A stretch of 36,030 nt of DNA from Holosporaceae bacterium (GTDB taxonomy: Bacteria > Pseudomonadota > Alphaproteobacteria > UBA3830): NCBI GenBank assembly GCA_031282425.1, contig JAITDT010000019.1, positions 1-36,030 of the forward strand. Reading direction: 5' to 3'. Both the position numbers and the translations under genes were made by a program. The notes under the pieces were generated by a model. That model worked only from the letters and a program-made list of their open reading frames with translations. It was not told where the DNA came from and made no database searches. Each line of letters opens with the position of its first letter. The first letter of the stretch is position 1. Positions 17,634-35,627 of this stretch are shown in pieces.

Positions 17634-20600
17634 TCAATCGCAGAGTTTTGCGGGCGTATAAGTGGCCCATACTTTTATGTCGTTAGCAATATCTTGAAGA
17701 TAATTTTTGATGTCTAGTTCATTTGCGTCATAGACGTAATCTTTGTTCGTGGCGCATTCGTCGATGTAAGAATAGTCGAAGTCGACGTTAGCGCCAGTGA
17801 TTTTATGCTTAAATTGACTTTGTTTACGATATTTCACGACGTAGATGCGGAGATTGTTGCCGTATGCCTCTTTAAGTTTAGCGCATGCGGCAACTGTGAG
17901 TCTCTGACACGCTCGAGTAGCATCGTAATCCATCTGATTGTTACCATCGAAGTACCATCCGCCCTCTCCCACTCTGGTGCTACCGAAGCCGTGGTACAGA
18001 GTTGCGTTAATTGGTAATGTCAGGCCAGCAAAAATCAGCGGCATGTCGGTGTTATAGGTTTTCCAGCGGTATCCACATTCGCCGACGACCTCCATATTTC
18101 GGTGAGAGAGAAACGGCCAAAAGCTACGATTCAATCCGGTCCCAAAATAGTCGTTAATATCATTCGGACTGGAAAGAATTTTGTGATAAAGTAAAATATT
18201 ATGTGTTACTTCTAGGTCTGTCATCATAAAAAAATCTCCCCAAAATGTTCCCGAACGAAGGTAGTTGCCGTCGGAATGATCGCCGGCATTTCGATAAAGT
18301 TCCCATCTGTCTATAATCGCATTCCAGCGGATACCCATAGTACCAGGCTCATCGGCAGATGAGCCGCACGATATATAATCATTGCCGGCGTCGAGTTTCA
18401 AATCACCGATATTATAAACAAATTTATTGTCACCGGTTTTTTTCGAAAAGTCCACTACCCGAGACATCTCCGGCAATCGCAACGCCGTATATGTATAGAC
18501 GCCATTCTCTACAGAATATGGCCGATTTGTAATTTCCGCGAAAATAAGACGGCTATTACGTAACTCTAGATCCACATAATAACTGCTGTCGGTATTCTGC
18601 TTGGCAATGCTTCCCGACTCGATGTAAAATTCCTGTCGATGGACGAGTTTATGAGAAGCGTCATCGATGGTGATGGAACCATTAATACAGTCTGAGATCA
18701 TGATATTACCGTGCTTGCGTAAAAGGACTAGTTTTTCATTATTGAGAGTAATAGCTTTCCAATCGGTAGATTCAAGTGCGGCATTCGAAGTATCGTTTAC
18801 TTCGCTCCATGTATCCCCGCCATCAATACTAGCAACAGCCGTGCCATTCTCATTCAGAGCTATCAAAGCACTTCCAGTAAATATGATGGCAAACCAGTTA
18901 GAGCCGATGCCGCTGATAGAACCTTTATTCACCCATGTTGCGCCACCGTCGGCGCTAACAGCCACTGAACCATTATCATTTAGAGCAACTAGCGTGTTAT
19001 CGACGGTAGTAATGGATCTCCAGCCTGATTCGCTGATGCTGATAGAACCTTTGTCCACCCATGTTGCACCATCGTCAGTGTTGGCAGCCACTGAACCATC
19101 GTAATTCAAAGCCACCAACGTACTGCCGATTGCAGTAATGGCACTCCAGTCTGAGTTGCTTGTTAGATTGGTTTTAGGCGTCCAGGTTGCGCCACAGTCT
19201 GTGCTGGTAGCTACTGAACCATCGCAATTCAAAGCCACTAGCGTACTGCCTATGCTAGTAATAGCTTCCCAGCCGGAATTCATAAAAGCGTGGAGCGACG
19301 ACGATTCAGAAACGGATTCCCATTTCAATTCCTGCTGCTGCTTTACCGGTTCGGCTACCATCTTCAGTAGATACTTTTGTGGAAAGGATAGACGAGCAGA
19401 GACCGGCGCGTTAATGGTGGAAGTTTCATAATAGCCAGAAGTAGCATTGTAACCAAAATTACCATCGCTTATGGAGAATTTTAGAATTTGCTTAAGACCT
19501 GTAATCAACTGCGATCCACTGGCCACATCAAACCTAATTCGATCTGATTCTACCATGGGGATTTCCGAATAGTCGTTGTCGAAGCCCAGATATGTAAGCT
19601 CGTGTGGCTCAAACCAATCTGGCTTGTTGATGATGAGGATCAGAGCTTTCTTCCGGTCCGCAACAATGAATTTCCCTTGATGTAATAGCCTACCGCCTGT
19701 TTCACTATCGTCCGCCGTGTCCACGGGTCCACAACCTGGATCGTTTGTCCAGTCGCAAAAAAGATTGTGAGCCCAGGAGACTGGTATAAAAAGAAAATTT
19801 GACACGGCGCGCTCGGAAAATGGCCCCATCACTGACAGCAAATCGCAAATTTTTCCAACATCCGACTGCAATTCGATAAGAAAATACGGGTTCTGGGTAT
19901 GCCCCTGCGGCCAACCGGCGCCATGATACGGATGTGGATATAGCAGACCTTCATTGGTTTTCATGCTGAGCAAATTCGCGTACCCAAGATAGCAAGGATA
20001 CATGTTAACACGGCGCCACTTCCTTTGGGTTGGCGCTTCCGTTGACAGCGGATCGCCAATATAGTCGGAGTTAGCTCCATCGCCACAGCGGCACATAACG
20101 CCGGTGCCTGGTCCCTCGCTTCTACTATAGATGGTCTGCTCATTTAGCGCGCCCCAAAGCGCGACGTAACTAGACAGGTTATAGGACGCAGGAATACTTA
20201 AAGAAGAAGTCTGCGGCCTAAACGAGTTGTCCACATAAGGATTTTGGGGAGAATTTGTCGGTGGAATTAAATTCGTACCGGCTTGGGCGCCATTGACGCT
20301 GTAAAGAAAACAGCCGCGTAGATAGGCGAGACATGCATTCTGATCTGTCAGAAATTTTGTGGCATCAAACGGTGAAATATCGACGGTCCACTCATAGTTT
20401 CGATCCGGTGGCAGCGACAGTTTCCCGGAATAGGGTATTAGTCCCACATTGACTCCGCGCGTAAACTCGAAATTATTTCGCAAAAACGTCTTTAACTCCT
20501 GCGCTATCTGATAAATAGGAGTTTTTCTGATGGATTTTGCCACAAACTCGCTCGCTTCTAGCTCTGCGCCATTTATGGTTGTGGAGTACCATTTGTCGTT

Positions 20601-21563
20601 ATGTGGCAAAAGCGTTATATGAGAAGCACCTATCGTCGGCGTTGTGGAATCGCAATTATTTGCGTTGGTAGCAGCGCCGTTAATTGGAATCGCCAAAACA
20701 ATATCAACGTTGCATTCCGCCGGAACCGCAAAAGCAACGTCCGAATCGGCTTGTACCGCTATTTTATCGGAAGCAACTGTTATTTGCACTCTTGGATCGT
20801 CTGTAGCGGATGCCGTTCTGATTGTATAAGTCGCTTGCTCTGTAGCTCCATAGCCGTCGCCCCATGCGGTGTTATAGGGTCCACCGTCGAACACTTCAGT
20901 GCGAGCTGTCAGAGCAGCGGCGCGGTAGCCGTGCCCAATGCCAGGTATGTAGTCCCAAAACATGTCCTCCGATATCCAATTACCCAGCTCTCGTTTCAGT
21001 AGAAAACGAGGGTCCTTGGTGCTTCCATACATTATGCGATAAAACGCTTGGGCGCCGCCGAAAGTGAACACCCGACGCGTATGCATTGTATCTACGGTCT
21101 CGTAGGGAATGACGTCTTCGGTCATGGGAATATTGGGTTCGCCCTCAAAGCCGGCGCCGAACCAAACCCAGCGGTAGGGATCGAAGATTCCGCCCGCGAC
21201 GGTATGAACAGTATAAACTTCCAGTCCCGGAATCGCCGCATGAACCGGCGCTATTCGATTGGTAGTAGAAGTGTTGTAGATATCGTCCGCAATGCGCAGC
21301 AGCGATATTTTCTGTTGATTCAGCGTCAAGCCAGGATTCCATTTCTTGGCCACCGCTAATGCCGCTTCGTGCGCGCGGGATTTGTAGAGCGTAACGCTAC
21401 CGCTTCCGTAAATTTTCGCCCGATAATAGTTCATCAAATCAATGCCGTAGCGAAATAACAGCAATAGCAGAGGTAGTGCTGCACACAATATAATCCAAAT
21501 GGCTCCGATCTTCCGTCGCCGTAATTTACGCTTCCGGCCGCTCGGAATAACTGCTTTTGCCAT
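17634..21563 (-). CDS. 1309-aa TadG-like membrane-anchored protein with internal Asp-box (BNR/sialidase-type) repeats
   Basis: Basic N-terminus plus one TM (RRRKIGAIWIILCAALPLLLLLFRYGIDLMNYYRAKI) typical of TadE/TadG pseudopilin-like anchors; C-terminus LRIYVVKYRKQSQF...DIKNYLQDIANDIKVWA resembles TadG/vWA ends; central Asp-box repeats. Confidence 0.72.
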   Translation of the reverse strand: MAKAVIPSGRKRKLRRRKIGAIWIILCAALPLLLLLFRYGIDLMNYYRAKIYGSGSVTLYKSRAHEAALAVAKKWNPGLTLNQQKISLLRIADDIYNTSTTNRIAPVHAAIPGLEVYTVHTVAGGIFDPYRWVWFGAGFEGEPNIPMTEDVIPYETVDTMHTRRVFTFGGAQAFYRIMYGSTKDPRFLLKRELGNWISEDMFWDYIPGIGHGYRAAALTARTEVFDGGPYNTAWGDGYGATEQATYTIRTASATDDPRVQITVASDKIAVQADSDVAFAVPAECNVDIVLAIPINGAATNANNCDSTTPTIGASHITLLPHNDKWYSTTINGAELEASEFVAKSIRKTPIYQIAQELKTFLRNNFEFTRGVNVGLIPYSGKLSLPPDRNYEWTVDISPFDATKFLTDQNACLAYLRGCFLYSVNGAQAGTNLIPPTNSPQNPYVDNSFRPQTSSLSIPASYNLSSYVALWGALNEQTIYSRSEGPGTGVMCRCGDGANSDYIGDPLSTEAPTQRKWRRVNMYPCYLGYANLLSMKTNEGLLYPHPYHGAGWPQGHTQNPYFLIELQSDVGKICDLLSVMGPFSERAVSNFLFIPVSWAHNLFCDWTNDPGCGPVDTADDSETGGRLLHQGKFIVADRKKALILIINKPDWFEPHELTYLGFDNDYSEIPMVESDRIRFDVASGSQLITGLKQILKFSISDGNFGYNATSGYYETSTINAPVSARLSFPQKYLLKMVAEPVKQQQELKWESVSESSSLHAFMNSGWEAITSIGSTLVALNCDGSVATSTDCGATWTPKTNLTSNSDWSAITAIGSTLVALNYDGSVAANTDDGATWVDKGSISISESGWRSITTVDNTLVALNDNGSVAVSADGGATWVNKGSISGIGSNWFAIIFTGSALIALNENGTAVASIDGGDTWSEVNDTSNAALESTDWKAITLNNEKLVLLRKHGNIMISDCINGSITIDDASHKLVHRQEFYIESGSIAKQNTDSSYYVDLELRNSRLIFAEITNRPYSVENGVYTYTALRLPEMSRVVDFSKKTGDNKFVYNIGDLKLDAGNDYISCGSSADEPGTMGIRWNAIIDRWELYRNAGDHSDGNYLRSGTFWGDFFMMTDLEVTHNILLYHKILSSPNDINDYFGTGLNRSFWPFLSHRNMEVVGECGYRWKTYNTDMPLIFAGLTLPINATLYHGFGSTRVGEGGWYFDGNNQMDYDATRACQRLTVAACAKLKEAYGNNLRIYVVKYRKQSQFKHKITGANVDFDYSYIDECATNKDYVYDANELDIKNYLQDIANDIKVWATYTPAKLCD
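18690..19280 (-). repeat. five tandem ~41-45-aa (123-135 bp) Asp-box/BNR repeats inside the 1309-aa ORF
   Basis: WEAITSIGSTLVALNCDGSVATSTDCGATW / WSAITAIGSTLVALNYDGSVAANTDDGATW / WRSITTVDNTLVALNDNGSVAVSADGGATW / WFAIIFTGSALIALNENGTAVASIDGGDTW / WKAITLNNEKLVLLRKHGNIMISDC (degenerate). W-to-W spacings 41, 42, 42, 45 aa. Confidence 0.93.
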
Positions 21564-25138: not shown

Positions 25139-26108
25139 TCAATTTGCATGAAAAAATCCATTGACATGCCAAAAGATGTATCTTATAAGTTGTCCCGCTT
25201 TGACTTTTTCTTTCGATTCGGCAATCTTATCCGCAATACTGACTTCTCCGGAACTTAGAATGGACAAAGTCCATTCTTTGTTTTTCTTCAGTTCGGAGTC
25301 GGCGTTCATTCTGCTCTTCCCCTTCGAGTTGCCCAACATATAGACTGTATTTCCGATGTCCTTGGCTTGAACCTGCCCTAATTCATCCAGAATCAGCAGA
25401 CAATCGTTGTAAGACTCGGCAACAGCCTCCAAGGCATTAGAGGTCGATCGCCATTGTTGGATGAATTTTTTCGGTTCTCCCCATACAGAAGCTGCTACAT
25501 GCAATGCCGTCGTTTTTCCTATTGAGCTCTTACCTATAAAATTAATGATTGCAGTATTGAAATGCTTTAATCTCCTCAGTAATACTCCCGATAACCCGAC
25601 GCACAACGCTAGAGTCAAGATTTTATTTCCTTCGCATAGCGTGCTCACATTTTGCGTCCATTCCGCAAGGGTTCCTCTTTTGGCAAAACCGGAGGTTTTA
25701 GTATTACTGACTAAAGAAAAAGAAGACTTTTCGTTCTGCGATGTCGAGAACGACGGGCATACAAATGAATCGTCGCCTATCCATCCCACAGTATAAACAT
25801 CAGTGATTCTTTTTTTTTGGTTTTGCGCTTGTTAAATACGTTATAAGTTTCTGACGATTACACGATGTATCGAATCCGTTTTCAAACAGGATCTCGATAA
25901 TCTCTTTTGGAGTACATAAAGTTTTCCGTTCAATATCAATCGACAATTCGTTTCCGTCCATGTTCTTAAACAGAACGCGCTTTTTCCATCGACTGCTACT
26001 TGTATCTCGTGATAGAGCTATAACTTCAATATAATTGCTTACTCTCTTGCCGTCATGAAAAAGACCTTTTTCTTTATCAACAACAAAAACTCTGATATCA
26101 TTAACCAT
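25139..26108 (-). pseudogene. DUF927-domain (helicase/primase-associated ATPase) protein, frameshifted
   Basis: MVNDIRVFVVDKEKGLFHDGKRVSNYIEVIALSRDTSSSRWKKRVLFKNMDG... then, with A9 (25810-25818) read as A8, KPKKRITDVYTVGWIGDDSFVCPS...FIGKSSIGKTTALHVAASVWGEP...LLILDELGQVQAKDIGNTVYMLGNSKGKSRMN. C-terminus also broken (AGQLIRYIFWHV*). Confidence 0.85.
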
Positions 26109-27077
26109 TGACGGTCTCCTTTTCTGTGCTTTGAAGTATAAAAAATCTGAGATCGTCGCAACTTGTTTTAATGAGCATGTCATTAAAATCTTTTTCATAC
26201 GTTGGGCAGATAATTTGAGCATTGTACCCCAACGCATGAAATGTATCATTTGCGGCTTTTATCCCTACATCATCGTTGTCTGCTGCTATAATAATCTTGG
26301 AATTCGGTAACAATTCTCTGATTCGCATAGCAACAGCATTCATATTACAGGCTGATATAGCGGCGATTGTATATAATTCTGTTGATTCGATATGCTGCAT
26401 GCGGTAGCATATCCCTCGGCAAGAACAATTGTATTTTGTTTGCAATCATAGTCGGATGCAACGTAAAATAATTCTTTAAAAGGCATTGGAAAACTCTTAC
26501 TTCCGTCTTCTCGAATGAATTGAAGACCTTTTATGCAAAGATTACTCTTATTCTCCGGAATAGAATCAATTAGCGGTATAACAAGCTGTTTTTTATCTTG
26601 GTAGCAATTAACTTTTGCGTTACCGATTGAGATGCGTTTTCGTTTTAAATATTCGTGATCTTCAGATTTGAAAGACTTGCTCCAGATATAATTCGGATTA
26701 ATTTTTTTCTTTTTAGCGAGTTTTGCTACGAAAGATGAAATTTTCGAACACGATGCGACAGAATTGTTTCCGATTATATCGGACAATTTTTTCGCTGCTG
26801 TGGGCAAGTCGCAACCATACGCAAATGCCGTCAGATCAATGATGCTGCCTCCTTTATTGCCGGAAGCAAAATCGTGAAATTTTCCTGTTTCAATATCTAT
26901 TCTAAAAGAGCCTGGTTTACTGTCATTTCGCCCTGGGTTAAGAGCAACATAGTCGCTACCTTGTATGGTTTCTCTTCCGGGAATGAGTCGCTGAAGCACC
27001 ACAATCTTTTCATCGCGAGAAAGAAAACGGTACCGGGATTTTAGCTCTTCGAAATTAACCATATCATCCCGGCTCAT
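26101..27077 (-). pseudogene. Toprim-domain DNA primase of a mobile element, frameshifted
   Basis: ORF 26340-27077 (RFRIDIETGKFHDFASGNKGGSIIDLTAFAYG...NTIVLAEGYATA) and ORF 26101-26445 (ESTELYTIAAISACNMNAVAMRIRELLPNSKIIIAADNDDVGIKAANDTFHALG) are two parts of one Toprim primase; frame change near 26395. Confidence 0.83.
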
Positions 27078-32570: not shown

Positions 32571-32665
32571 TATTTATGGTGAAAAGTCATATTGCGAGAG
32601 GTATTTTATGTCTGACAGGCTTTATCTATTGAGCGAGAGTGTGCTTAATATCTGAGACACACACA

Positions 32666-32675
32666 CCCCCCCCCC
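32666..32675 (+). repeat. C10 homopolymer following an (AC)n tract, ~107 bp upstream of the E2-like gene
   Basis: tgagacacacacaCCCCCCCCCCaacgag. Confidence 0.9.
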
Positions 32676-32782
32676 AACGAGAATAAATCTGTCTTATATA
32701 ATTCTATATAAATCCTTGGTTAAATTAACATAATGGAAACTTTTTTGATGTTTAATCATCTTAGATTGCTGGAAAATTAACA

Positions 32783-34924
32783 ATGCTAATAGACATAATT
32801 GTTCCAAATTTTGATAATTCTTCCGAAGAGGTAGTTTTATCTTCATGGTACAAAAAAGTCGGAGATAAAATTTCAAAAAATGAAATTGTTGCGGATGCTG
32901 AAACGCCATTTGTAGCATGCGGTATCACTTCTAGTCATGATTGTATATTGGTAAAAATATTGGTTAAAGAAGGAGAAACTATAGCGCCTGGAACAAAAAT
33001 TGCCGTCATTGAGACAGATTTGGACGCTACTATTTCCGAAATCAAAGAAGAGGCAAAAGTTGTAAAAGCGGAAACGTTGCCAGACGACAATGCTGCCATC
33101 TCGATTCAAGAATATAAGAGCACACCGATGGAATCGACCTACGACAACAAATACGACCTATCGGTTCCGCTGAATGCCGATGCAGAAATCGTTGAAGAGG
33201 TGGTCGAAGAATTTTCAGAACATGCCGAAGAAAAATATAAAGATATTCTTAAGAACGCCGAAAACCAAGCCAGGGAAGAAGCCATAAAATTAAAGGAAAA
33301 AATTCTGGAGGATACTCGAAAGATAGCTTTACTTCAGGCGGAGGAGCTAAAGGCTAAAACATTAAAAGAGTACGAGGAAAAAGCCCTCATAGACGCCGGT
33401 GAAATGCATAAAAAGATAATTCAGGGCTCCATTCAGGAAGCAGGAAGCACAAAAACAAAATTAATAGAAGAAACCCGTGAAAAAGCCATACTGGAGGCTA
33501 AAAGACTTGAAAATGATATTATTACCGATGCCCGAGAAAAAGCAAATCTGAAGGCTGAAAAAATAATACGAGAAGCCAGCGACGCTGCAAGAGAAGAAGC
33601 CAAACTACGCTCAGAATCACTATCTAGAGAGATTATCGAAAAAGCCATTGCCGAATCAAAAGCCAAAGCCAAAGCCGTTAAAAAAGATATCATATGTTCG
33701 GCACGTAAGCATGCGGTTAAGATATCTACCAAGATCATAAGAAAATCTGCCAAAACTCATACTAAACAGATGGAAGATTTCGTGGCATCGGCAATTCATC
33801 CTTCTTTGGACAAAATAGATTCGTTGCGGAAGGAAATCCTCAGAAACGTTCGAGAAGAAATTCAAGTAGCGTCGAATTCGCTGTTAAATTCCATTGAAAA
33901 TGGTATGCGCAGGAATGTTACGAGCATGACAGGTTATTTCCAAAAAGCCATTGAAGATACAAATGGCAATATTAAAAGCATAAAAAGTGAGATTGAGAAA
34001 AAAATCGAAAGTAGATCTGGTGAAAAGAATGCCATCGCTAAAACTCTTCTAAACACAAGTAATAATGATTTATGCCAAAAAATAAAGGCTGAGAAAGATT
34101 ATCAAACAAAAGAGCAGTCAGAGATCATCAAAAAACTACTGCGGGTGGAAGAGGAAAACAGTTCGCCTGACTTATATGCGGACAATTGGAATAAACCGCA
34201 ATTTTTTGAATCGCCAGGAGATTACAAAGAACCAATTGATCTTCTTAAGCGTAGAATTTCGGAAAAAATAAAGAGCACATATGACGCATCCGTCATTTCC
34301 ACCGTATCAAACGAGGTTGATATGAGCGCCGTTTTGGCTTTAGAAAAAACCTTCGGCAACGCATTCTCCAAAAGACACAATGTCCGACTTGGATTTACGC
34401 CGTTTTTTATATCCGCTTGCATAGCAGCGCTGAAACAGTATCGCATTTTTAATGCCCACATTCATAATGATGAAATCATATACAAAAATAATTTCGATAT
34501 ATCAATTATTACCTGCGGAAATGATGGGATTGCAACGCCCGTCATTCGACATGCCGATACTCTAACGATCGCTGAAATAGAAAAATCCATGATTACCCTT
34601 TCTAAAAGAGCTATAGAAGGAACATTATCCGTCGAAGAAGTTTCCGGAGGTACGTTTACGGTAATTAATGCTGGAATTTATGGATCGCTCATTGGAACAG
34701 ATCTACTAACGCCGCCACAGGTGGCGACTCTTAGCGTTCATAAAATGCACAATCGTCCGGTTGCTTCTGATAACAACATGACAATAAAGCCGATGCTATA
34801 TATTTCCCTCTCCTATGATCATAGGATTTCCGATACTCGAAAGGCTTCTGAATTTCTATCAAACATAAAAAATTACGTGGAAAATCCTGGCTGGCAGATA
34901 TTGGGACTCACCTATGCTCGCTAA
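32783..34924 (+). CDS. 2-oxo acid dehydrogenase E2 acyltransferase-like chimera: degenerate lipoyl-like domain, long coiled coil, acyltransferase domain
   Basis: N-term IIVPNFDNSSEEVVLSSWYKKVGDKISKNEIVADAETPFVACGITSSHDCILVKILVKEGETIAPGTKIAVIE (lipoyl-like, ETDK replaced by ETPF); aa ~140-460 Glu/Lys/Ala coiled coil; C-term PIDLLKRRISEKI...FTPFFISACIAALKQY...SGGTFTVINAGIYGSLIGTDLLTPPQVATLSV...SLSYDHRISDTRKASEFL. Confidence 0.85.
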   Translation: MLIDIIVPNFDNSSEEVVLSSWYKKVGDKISKNEIVADAETPFVACGITSSHDCILVKILVKEGETIAPGTKIAVIETDLDATISEIKEEAKVVKAETLPDDNAAISIQEYKSTPMESTYDNKYDLSVPLNADAEIVEEVVEEFSEHAEEKYKDILKNAENQAREEAIKLKEKILEDTRKIALLQAEELKAKTLKEYEEKALIDAGEMHKKIIQGSIQEAGSTKTKLIEETREKAILEAKRLENDIITDAREKANLKAEKIIREASDAAREEAKLRSESLSREIIEKAIAESKAKAKAVKKDIICSARKHAVKISTKIIRKSAKTHTKQMEDFVASAIHPSLDKIDSLRKEILRNVREEIQVASNSLLNSIENGMRRNVTSMTGYFQKAIEDTNGNIKSIKSEIEKKIESRSGEKNAIAKTLLNTSNNDLCQKIKAEKDYQTKEQSEIIKKLLRVEEENSSPDLYADNWNKPQFFESPGDYKEPIDLLKRRISEKIKSTYDASVISTVSNEVDMSAVLALEKTFGNAFSKRHNVRLGFTPFFISACIAALKQYRIFNAHIHNDEIIYKNNFDISIITCGNDGIATPVIRHADTLTIAEIEKSMITLSKRAIEGTLSVEEVSGGTFTVINAGIYGSLIGTDLLTPPQVATLSVHKMHNRPVASDNNMTIKPMLYISLSYDHRISDTRKASEFLSNIKNYVENPGWQILGLTYAR

Positions 34925-35162
34925 ATAATGAGAATGCAGCGCAATTTATTCATTAACAAATAAAATCTCCCTAAAATATCGGTTATTTTGTCGTCTTTGT
35001 ATGTGAGCATTGACTTTTCTTTAATGATATATTGACCCACTATTGGTGGCAATAACTTTTACCTTCAATTTATCAAAGAACGGCCGAAAAATTTTCACCA
35101 AATTAACTTTATGTAAAAAAAATTGTCTTACTCTAATAACATTAAATGTTGTGAGTTTACAT

Positions 35163-35627
35163 ATGAAGGAAGAAGTATTATCCATTCGAGTCGCCGGCCG
35201 TATAAAATGGTTTAACCAATTTAAGGGGTATGGTTTTCTGGAAGTAGAAAATATACCAGAAGATATATTTTTGCACTTTTCAGTAATCGACAAGTCAGAA
35301 GTCAAGCATTTAAGCAATGAAGATATAATTTTATGTGATATTACTAGAACGGAGAGAGGATTTCAGGTTAGCAATATTGTAGAATTGCTGCATTCCAACA
35401 AATATGAAGTGGGAAGGCAGGAGAAAAAACATGTTACAGCTATAATGAAATGGTTCAATCCTTCCAAAGGATTCGGATTTGCGCAACTGAATTCCGGAGA
35501 AGATGTTTTCATACATTCCAGTCTTTTGAAAAAGCATAGATTAACCGAGATTGAACAGGGATGCCCCATAAAGTTGATAGTTCATTATACAAATTTTGGG
35601 TATGAAGCTATCGACATAATCCCATGA
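35163..35627 (+). CDS. tandem (two-domain) cold-shock-domain protein
   Basis: GRIKWFNQFKGYGFLEVENIPEDIFLHFSVI and AIMKWFNPSKGFGFAQLNSGEDVFIHSSLLKK: two CSD RNP1-like motifs. Start set at MKEEVLSIRVAG (35163) rather than 35043. Confidence 0.9.
   Translation: MKEEVLSIRVAGRIKWFNQFKGYGFLEVENIPEDIFLHFSVIDKSEVKHLSNEDIILCDITRTERGFQVSNIVELLHSNKYEVGRQEKKHVTAIMKWFNPSKGFGFAQLNSGEDVFIHSSLLKKHRLTEIEQGCPIKLIVHYTNFGYEAIDIIP

Follow-up and report, generated by a model that had tools for sequence, protein, structure and literature searches.

What does an E2 protein do in a genome where its lipoyl lysine and its partner enzymes are missing? E2 proteins belong to obligate multi-enzyme complexes. The window, which is the whole analyzed stretch of 36,030 nucleotides from the contig JAITDT010000019.1 of a Holosporaceae bacterium, includes a gene (32783..34924, + strand) recognized by open reading frame and domain searches. 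Its 713 aa product is composed, from the N- to the C-terminus, of a lipoyl-fold head, a long helical coil, and a full SucB-type acyltransferase domain. It is very likely, with a probability of about 0.93, that this chimera is a repurposed SucB, the E2 of 2-oxoglutarate dehydrogenase, which acts outside any dehydrogenase complex.

Two Pfam matches were found in the protein: PF00364 at aa 5-76 with the e-value 3.3e-7 and PF00198 at aa 482-702 with the e-value 6.7e-54. Between and beyond them, no other Pfam match was detected up to the e-value 10. The peripheral-subunit-binding domain (E3_binding), which had been noted as missing, is absent from the window protein at this threshold, and was found in none of 13 family members at the e-value 0.01. 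Among the NCBIfam models, sucB (TIGR01347) is the nearest, and the score of 302.8 bits is under the equivalog cut-off of 378.65. The full-length AlphaFold model, predicted with 13 sequences, is poor (pLDDT 54.5) and was used for helix assignment only. A phage origin of the chimera was rejected, as no PHROG match was obtained. Just upstream of the gene, around 32655-32678 of the window, a CA run is followed by a C run, which is a possible slippage site or assembly artefact.

The lipoyl-fold head (aa 5-76; 32795..33010, + strand) contains no modifiable lysine. It is aligned with canonical lipoyl domains without internal gaps. AlphaFold predicted the head alone with a pLDDT of 85.4, and the best Foldseek matches of this model are lipoyl domains (3crk_C, e-value 6.2e-6; TM 0.73-0.79). 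The gap-free alignment, the family alignment and the head model all place Phe43 (32909..32911, +) at the hairpin tip, where E2 proteins have the lipoyl Lys. Among the 28 family members, this column is occupied by Ser (12), Thr (10), Gln (3), Phe (2), and Met (1), and Lys was looked for and found in none. Both the lipoyl-like N-terminus and the loss of the lysine, as claimed in the original prediction, are thus observed. In the family alignment, two Cys residues are invariant (28/28). Cys46 (32918..32920, +) corresponds to Leu, Val, Ile, or Met in canonical E2 proteins, and Cys54 (32942..32944, +) to Gly in all 17 canonical E2 proteins compared. Both are located in strands beside the hairpin tip in the head model; Cys46 is three residues past the tip, within a strand, and its side chain probably points inward.

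The E2 acyltransferase (CAT-fold) domain of the SucB type (aa 482-702; 34226..34888, + strand) is full-length, as had been proposed, and among solved structures, it is nearest to the E. coli SucB core (PDB 1c4t, e-value 4.1e-59). In CAT-fold enzymes, Ser or Thr stabilizes the oxyanion. The oxyanion-stabilizing Ser of E2p is Ser551 (PMC8421416). In the family alignment, Ile628 of the window protein (34664..34666, +) corresponds to E. coli Thr323, and this position is Ile or Val in 28/28 members. Asp679-His680-Arg681...Asp684 (34817..34834, +) corresponds to E. coli Asp374, His375, Arg376, and Asp379, whose roles have been described (PMC5986005). The four residues are conserved in 28, 28, 27, and 27 of the 28 members, respectively. 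The next residue, Thr685 (34835..34837, +), corresponds to E. coli Gly380, which is Gly in 18/18 canonical E2 proteins compared and Thr in 28/28 family members. The retention of SYDHRxxD and the Gly to Thr change noticed in the window protein therefore extend to the family. The CoA-stacking Phe (F247 in C. thermophilum E2o) is also kept in 28/28. Five positions invariant in SucB have changed together and are near-fixed in the family: V280A, P335D, N338T, G346S, and G380T.

In E. coli SucB, Asp374Ala and His375Ala leave 2.1% of the activity, Asp379Ala about 9.5%, and Thr323Ala 45% (PMC5986005); thus, the residues kept in the family are those mattering most. Thr323, which is lost in the family, matters little in E. 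coli SucB, where the mutant data cover Ala, not Ile or Val. The substitution of Thr323 with Ile or Val was rejected as proof of inactivity, since E. coli Thr323Ala costs just twofold (PMC5986005). The Asp-His-Arg of E2 additionally forms a structural salt bridge (PMC8421416). Judged from the sequence, the conserved Asp-His pair and the CoA-stacking Phe appear compatible with a structural assembly and with an acyltransferase alike. The hydrophobic C-terminal knob (H7) joins E2o trimers into a cube (PMC9681731). Comparison with this E2 C-terminus indicated PGWQILGL (34886..34909, +) as the counterpart of the knob, and its conservation across the family is partial.

The head and the acyltransferase domain are separated by the long helical coil (aa 140-404; 33200..33994, + strand), in which helices are predicted with modest confidence at aa 140-212 and 221-404. 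The hydrophobic period is 3.78 residues in the window protein and 3.77-3.81 in 14/14 non-redundant coils, and the power of 15-48 exceeds the maximum of about 12 reached by shuffles. The autocorrelation peaks at 4, 11, 15, 19, 34, 38, and 53 represent a mix of 15- and 19-residue repeats. At the heptad period 3.50, the power is just 0-2.4 in these 14 coils. A coil period above 3.6 leads to right-handed supercoiling. The period of 3.78 is thus a sign of a right-handed coil and not of a classical heptad coiled coil. The coiled coil of the original prediction was supported by the helix prediction and by a periodicity far above shuffles, with the refinement that it is not of the classical heptad form. 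No homologues of the coil were found among solved proteins or Pfam families. The coil region is about 300-830 residues long among family members, and because of this wide variation, its reach, rather than its exact length, seems to be important.

The acyltransferase profile of the window protein matches 36 of the 41 family genomes, two of the 36 partially. These genomes are MAGs, of which 18 are at least 90% complete, and the named records are Holosporaceae or Alphaproteobacteria MAGs, several of them of ruminant-gut origin. The members of the order UBA3830 have been described as putative endosymbionts from termites and ruminants that are equipped with an ATP/ADP transporter, and the rumen alphaproteobacteria were reported to be without TCA-cycle enzymes (PMC11257099, PMC9177762). 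As one of the family records is UBA3830 itself, the window probably belongs to this order. The search for other proteins of the same architecture gave 28 copies that could be compared end to end, on which all residue counts above are based; they are 677-1204 aa long and share one common architecture. No copy was detected in five of the 41 genomes, G003 (94% complete), G020 (97%), and three poorer ones, and the chimera may therefore be dispensable in some lineages. G008, a MAG with 7% contamination, has two different copies of 716 and 896 aa (L003 and L045), the second of which is preceded by genes resembling a type II secretion/pilus operon. Within the coil, in-frame stops or a broken frame are seen at L047:7033-7035, near L049 2931, and near L012 1498-1526 (G036, G030, and G018, respectively), which represent either sequencing error or decay.

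The phylogenetic analysis of the acyltransferase domain revealed the family as a monophyletic clade (100/100) on the SucB side and beside alphaproteobacterial SucB proteins, without resolving which SucB lineage is its sister. The stem of the family is 2.03 changes per site, in contrast to the short branches inside the clade. The dN/dS values were read from the less saturated pairs, as many others are saturated at silent sites. These pairs show about 0.02-0.04 for the acyltransferase domain, which is among the slowest-evolving parts of the chimera, and 0-0.04 for the head. Between G029 and G023, the values are 0 for the head, 0.02 for the acyltransferase domain, and 0.09 for the coil; between G013 and G024, they are 0.04, 0.02, and 0.08, the last being near saturation. 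Purifying selection on both end domains is strong, and thus the chimera is no relic. A new function is expected to show rapid change at birth and strict conservation afterwards, as seen here.

The chimera is the sole E2 of its genome. The lack of adjacent E1 and E3 genes had been pointed out for the window, and this turned out to be an understatement. SucA was found in 0/41 family genomes, and neither E1_dh, nor lipoamide dehydrogenase, nor the lipoyl synthase LipA was found over the cut-off in any of the 41; two E1_dh stretches of 19 bits are under it, and the best lipoamide dehydrogenase score is 64 of 409 bits. Among proteins similar to lipoamide dehydrogenase, the type of ~540 aa (L086 3497-5104) was rejected as a GltD-like/PorD fusion far below the cut-off, and those of ~310 aa, also far below it, are probably thioredoxin reductases. 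The window genome has two biotinyl/lipoyl domains, the chimera head and one in a 162-aa frame that is probably BCCP. Lipoate scavenging was rejected because the single PF03099 protein of the window genome is BirA. Of the seven LplA/LipB-type matches tested, six are biotin ligases (birA_ligase) over the cut-off, and the exception is a weak BirA-like piece in G015. Two sister families within the order, f2 and f4, whose genomes are 0.9 Mb in size, served as positive controls and showed LipA at 346-370 bits and Lpd at 530-563 bits, and they also hold a PDH-type E2. Since these genes are found in sister genomes of equal size, the absence in the family is real. Pyruvate:ferredoxin oxidoreductase (PFOR) is found in 40/41 family genomes and 4/5 genomes of f3, and in none of f2 and f4; it replaces PDH in the family. 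These absences and the distribution of PFOR indicate that the family exchanged PDH for PFOR, dropped lipoate, and retained one E2. Together with the monophyly on a long stem and the purifying selection, they support the repurposed E2 of the original prediction.

The gene neighborhood is variable. In about 14 genomes from four genera, uppP, encoding undecaprenyl-diphosphate phosphatase, precedes the chimera gene in the same orientation at a distance of roughly 60-110 bp (L088, L090, L092-L098, L039, L047, L051, L052, and L055). The genes before uppP vary and, as read from the sequence, include biotin carboxylase genes, Asd-like, TrmL-like, rplU-rpmA, and fmt. The chimera is not adjoined by uppP in the window, G011, G008b, G024, G019, and G016. 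At most, this pairing hints at a link to the envelope. PFOR genes adjoin the chimera gene divergently in G011 and are near it in G016, accompanied by the GltD-like/PorD fusion (L086:3497-7799, - strand; L038:695-2406, - strand). In the window, a protein with two cold-shock domains is encoded downstream of the chimera (35142-35627, +). Elsewhere in the window, a DUF927 domain is divided between two adjacent ORFs (25139-25789 and 25800-26249, both -) as if interrupted, and a 1309-aa protein (17634-21563, -) shows a weak BNR-repeat match alone.

For the new task of the chimera, a scaffold or tether is slightly favored. The lineage abandoned 2-oxoacid dehydrogenase complexes and lipoate, and the remaining SucB was very likely recruited to another task. 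The C-terminal domain may still trimerize, perhaps into a 24-mer cube, and with PGWQILGL in the place of the knob such a cubic assembly is plausible. From each trimer, three coils would emerge as a single right-handed bundle with a length of tens of nanometres. The lipoyl-fold heads would sit at the tips as non-catalytic docking modules, and CoA could still be bound in the old channel. A protein with a trimeric core, a coil bundle, and docking heads would act as a scaffold or tether. The fixed changes at the lipoyl tip, Thr323, and Gly380 are as expected if lipoyl catalysis no longer constrains the protein. On the other side, Asp374, His375, and the CoA Phe in 28/28 and Asp379 in 27/28 exceed the needs of a pure scaffold, and the oligomer is a prediction, with a poor full-length model and a partly conserved knob. 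More speculatively, the chimera might form a large spoked particle with cubic or trimeric SucB hubs and with right-handed rods, 30-100 nm long, that carry the lipoyl-fold heads. Its role, sketched with as much reserve, might be that of an intracellular scaffold or, following the uppP hint, an envelope-linked tether in endosymbionts without any lipoate metabolism.

The same conserved residues are the starting point of the main alternative, a tentative one, in which the chimera still works as a CoA-dependent acyltransferase with the CAT/E2 fold, acts on a new acceptor, a small molecule or a protein, and is supplied with acetyl-CoA by PFOR. In this case, the coil and head would possibly position the enzyme or recruit the acceptor. 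This reading is kept in view of the retained catalytic pair and CoA Phe, and the five coordinated near-fixed changes, the slow evolution of the domain, and the PFOR genes adjoining the chimera in G011 are consistent with it. However, Thr323 is replaced by Ile or Val and Gly380 by Thr in all members, neither a substrate nor an operon partner suggesting one was found, and the PFOR adjacency is seen in few genomes. It is improbable that the head carries another chemistry, in which the thiols of Cys46 and Cys54 would replace the lipoate dithiol in a redox or acyl-carrying role and visit the acyltransferase channel. The invariance of both residues, at positions of aliphatic residues and Gly in canonical E2 proteins and next to the hairpin tip, agrees with such a carrier, but the probable inward orientation of Cys46 and the absence of the reductase partner Lpd do not.

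That the chimera is a genuine E2, with E1, E3, and lipoylation genes missed through assembly gaps or divergence, is strongly contradicted. The MAG nature of the genomes and the two weak E1_dh stretches would allow it, but the absence extends over 41 genomes, including 18 with a completeness of 90% or more, the controls of the same order are positive, and no lysine is available for lipoylation. A decaying SucB relic is equally hard to credit. The three copies with a stop or frame break and the five genomes without a copy would be accommodated, but both end domains show dN/dS values far under 1 and the new residues are invariant across the family.

The repurposed SucB is thus retained by the family under strong selection after the loss of the complex, the cofactor pathway, and the modifiable lysine. 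It offers a clean natural example, in reduced genomes, of a self-assembling enzyme core that underwent exaptation. An altered E2 piece kept by gut bacteria with tiny genomes points to a new job for an old protein. The annotation of such genes as sucB, and the TCA-cycle step deduced from it, are misleading.

A narrow literature search found no precedent for a repurposed E2 with a coiled coil. The coil resembles YadA-type trimeric stalks in its 15-residue repeat, for which a right-handed sense is expected from the period above 3.6 (PMC3539135), but the likeness is in periodicity only; a sequence relationship was not found, and the chimera coil mixes 15 and 19. The E3-binding protein (protein X) of eukaryotic PDH is likewise a noncatalytic E2 relative used structurally (PMC9681731), but it works within PDH and binds E3 via a subunit-binding domain, and neither E3 nor such a domain was found here. 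Actinobacterial OdhA also includes a SucB-type catalytic domain within an unusual protein, but it is a single active polypeptide that combines the steps of E1 and E2o (PMC10415282), while no E1 is present here. SucB itself (TIGR01347; PDB 1c4t, 1e2o) differs from the chimera, which has no lipoyl Lys or subunit-binding domain, a coil region of 300-830 residues, a score below the equivalog cut-off, and a genome missing the dehydrogenase complex; the catalytic fold and sequence (e-value 4e-59), the Asp-His-Arg...Asp motif, and the lipoyl-fold N-terminus are nevertheless those of SucB.
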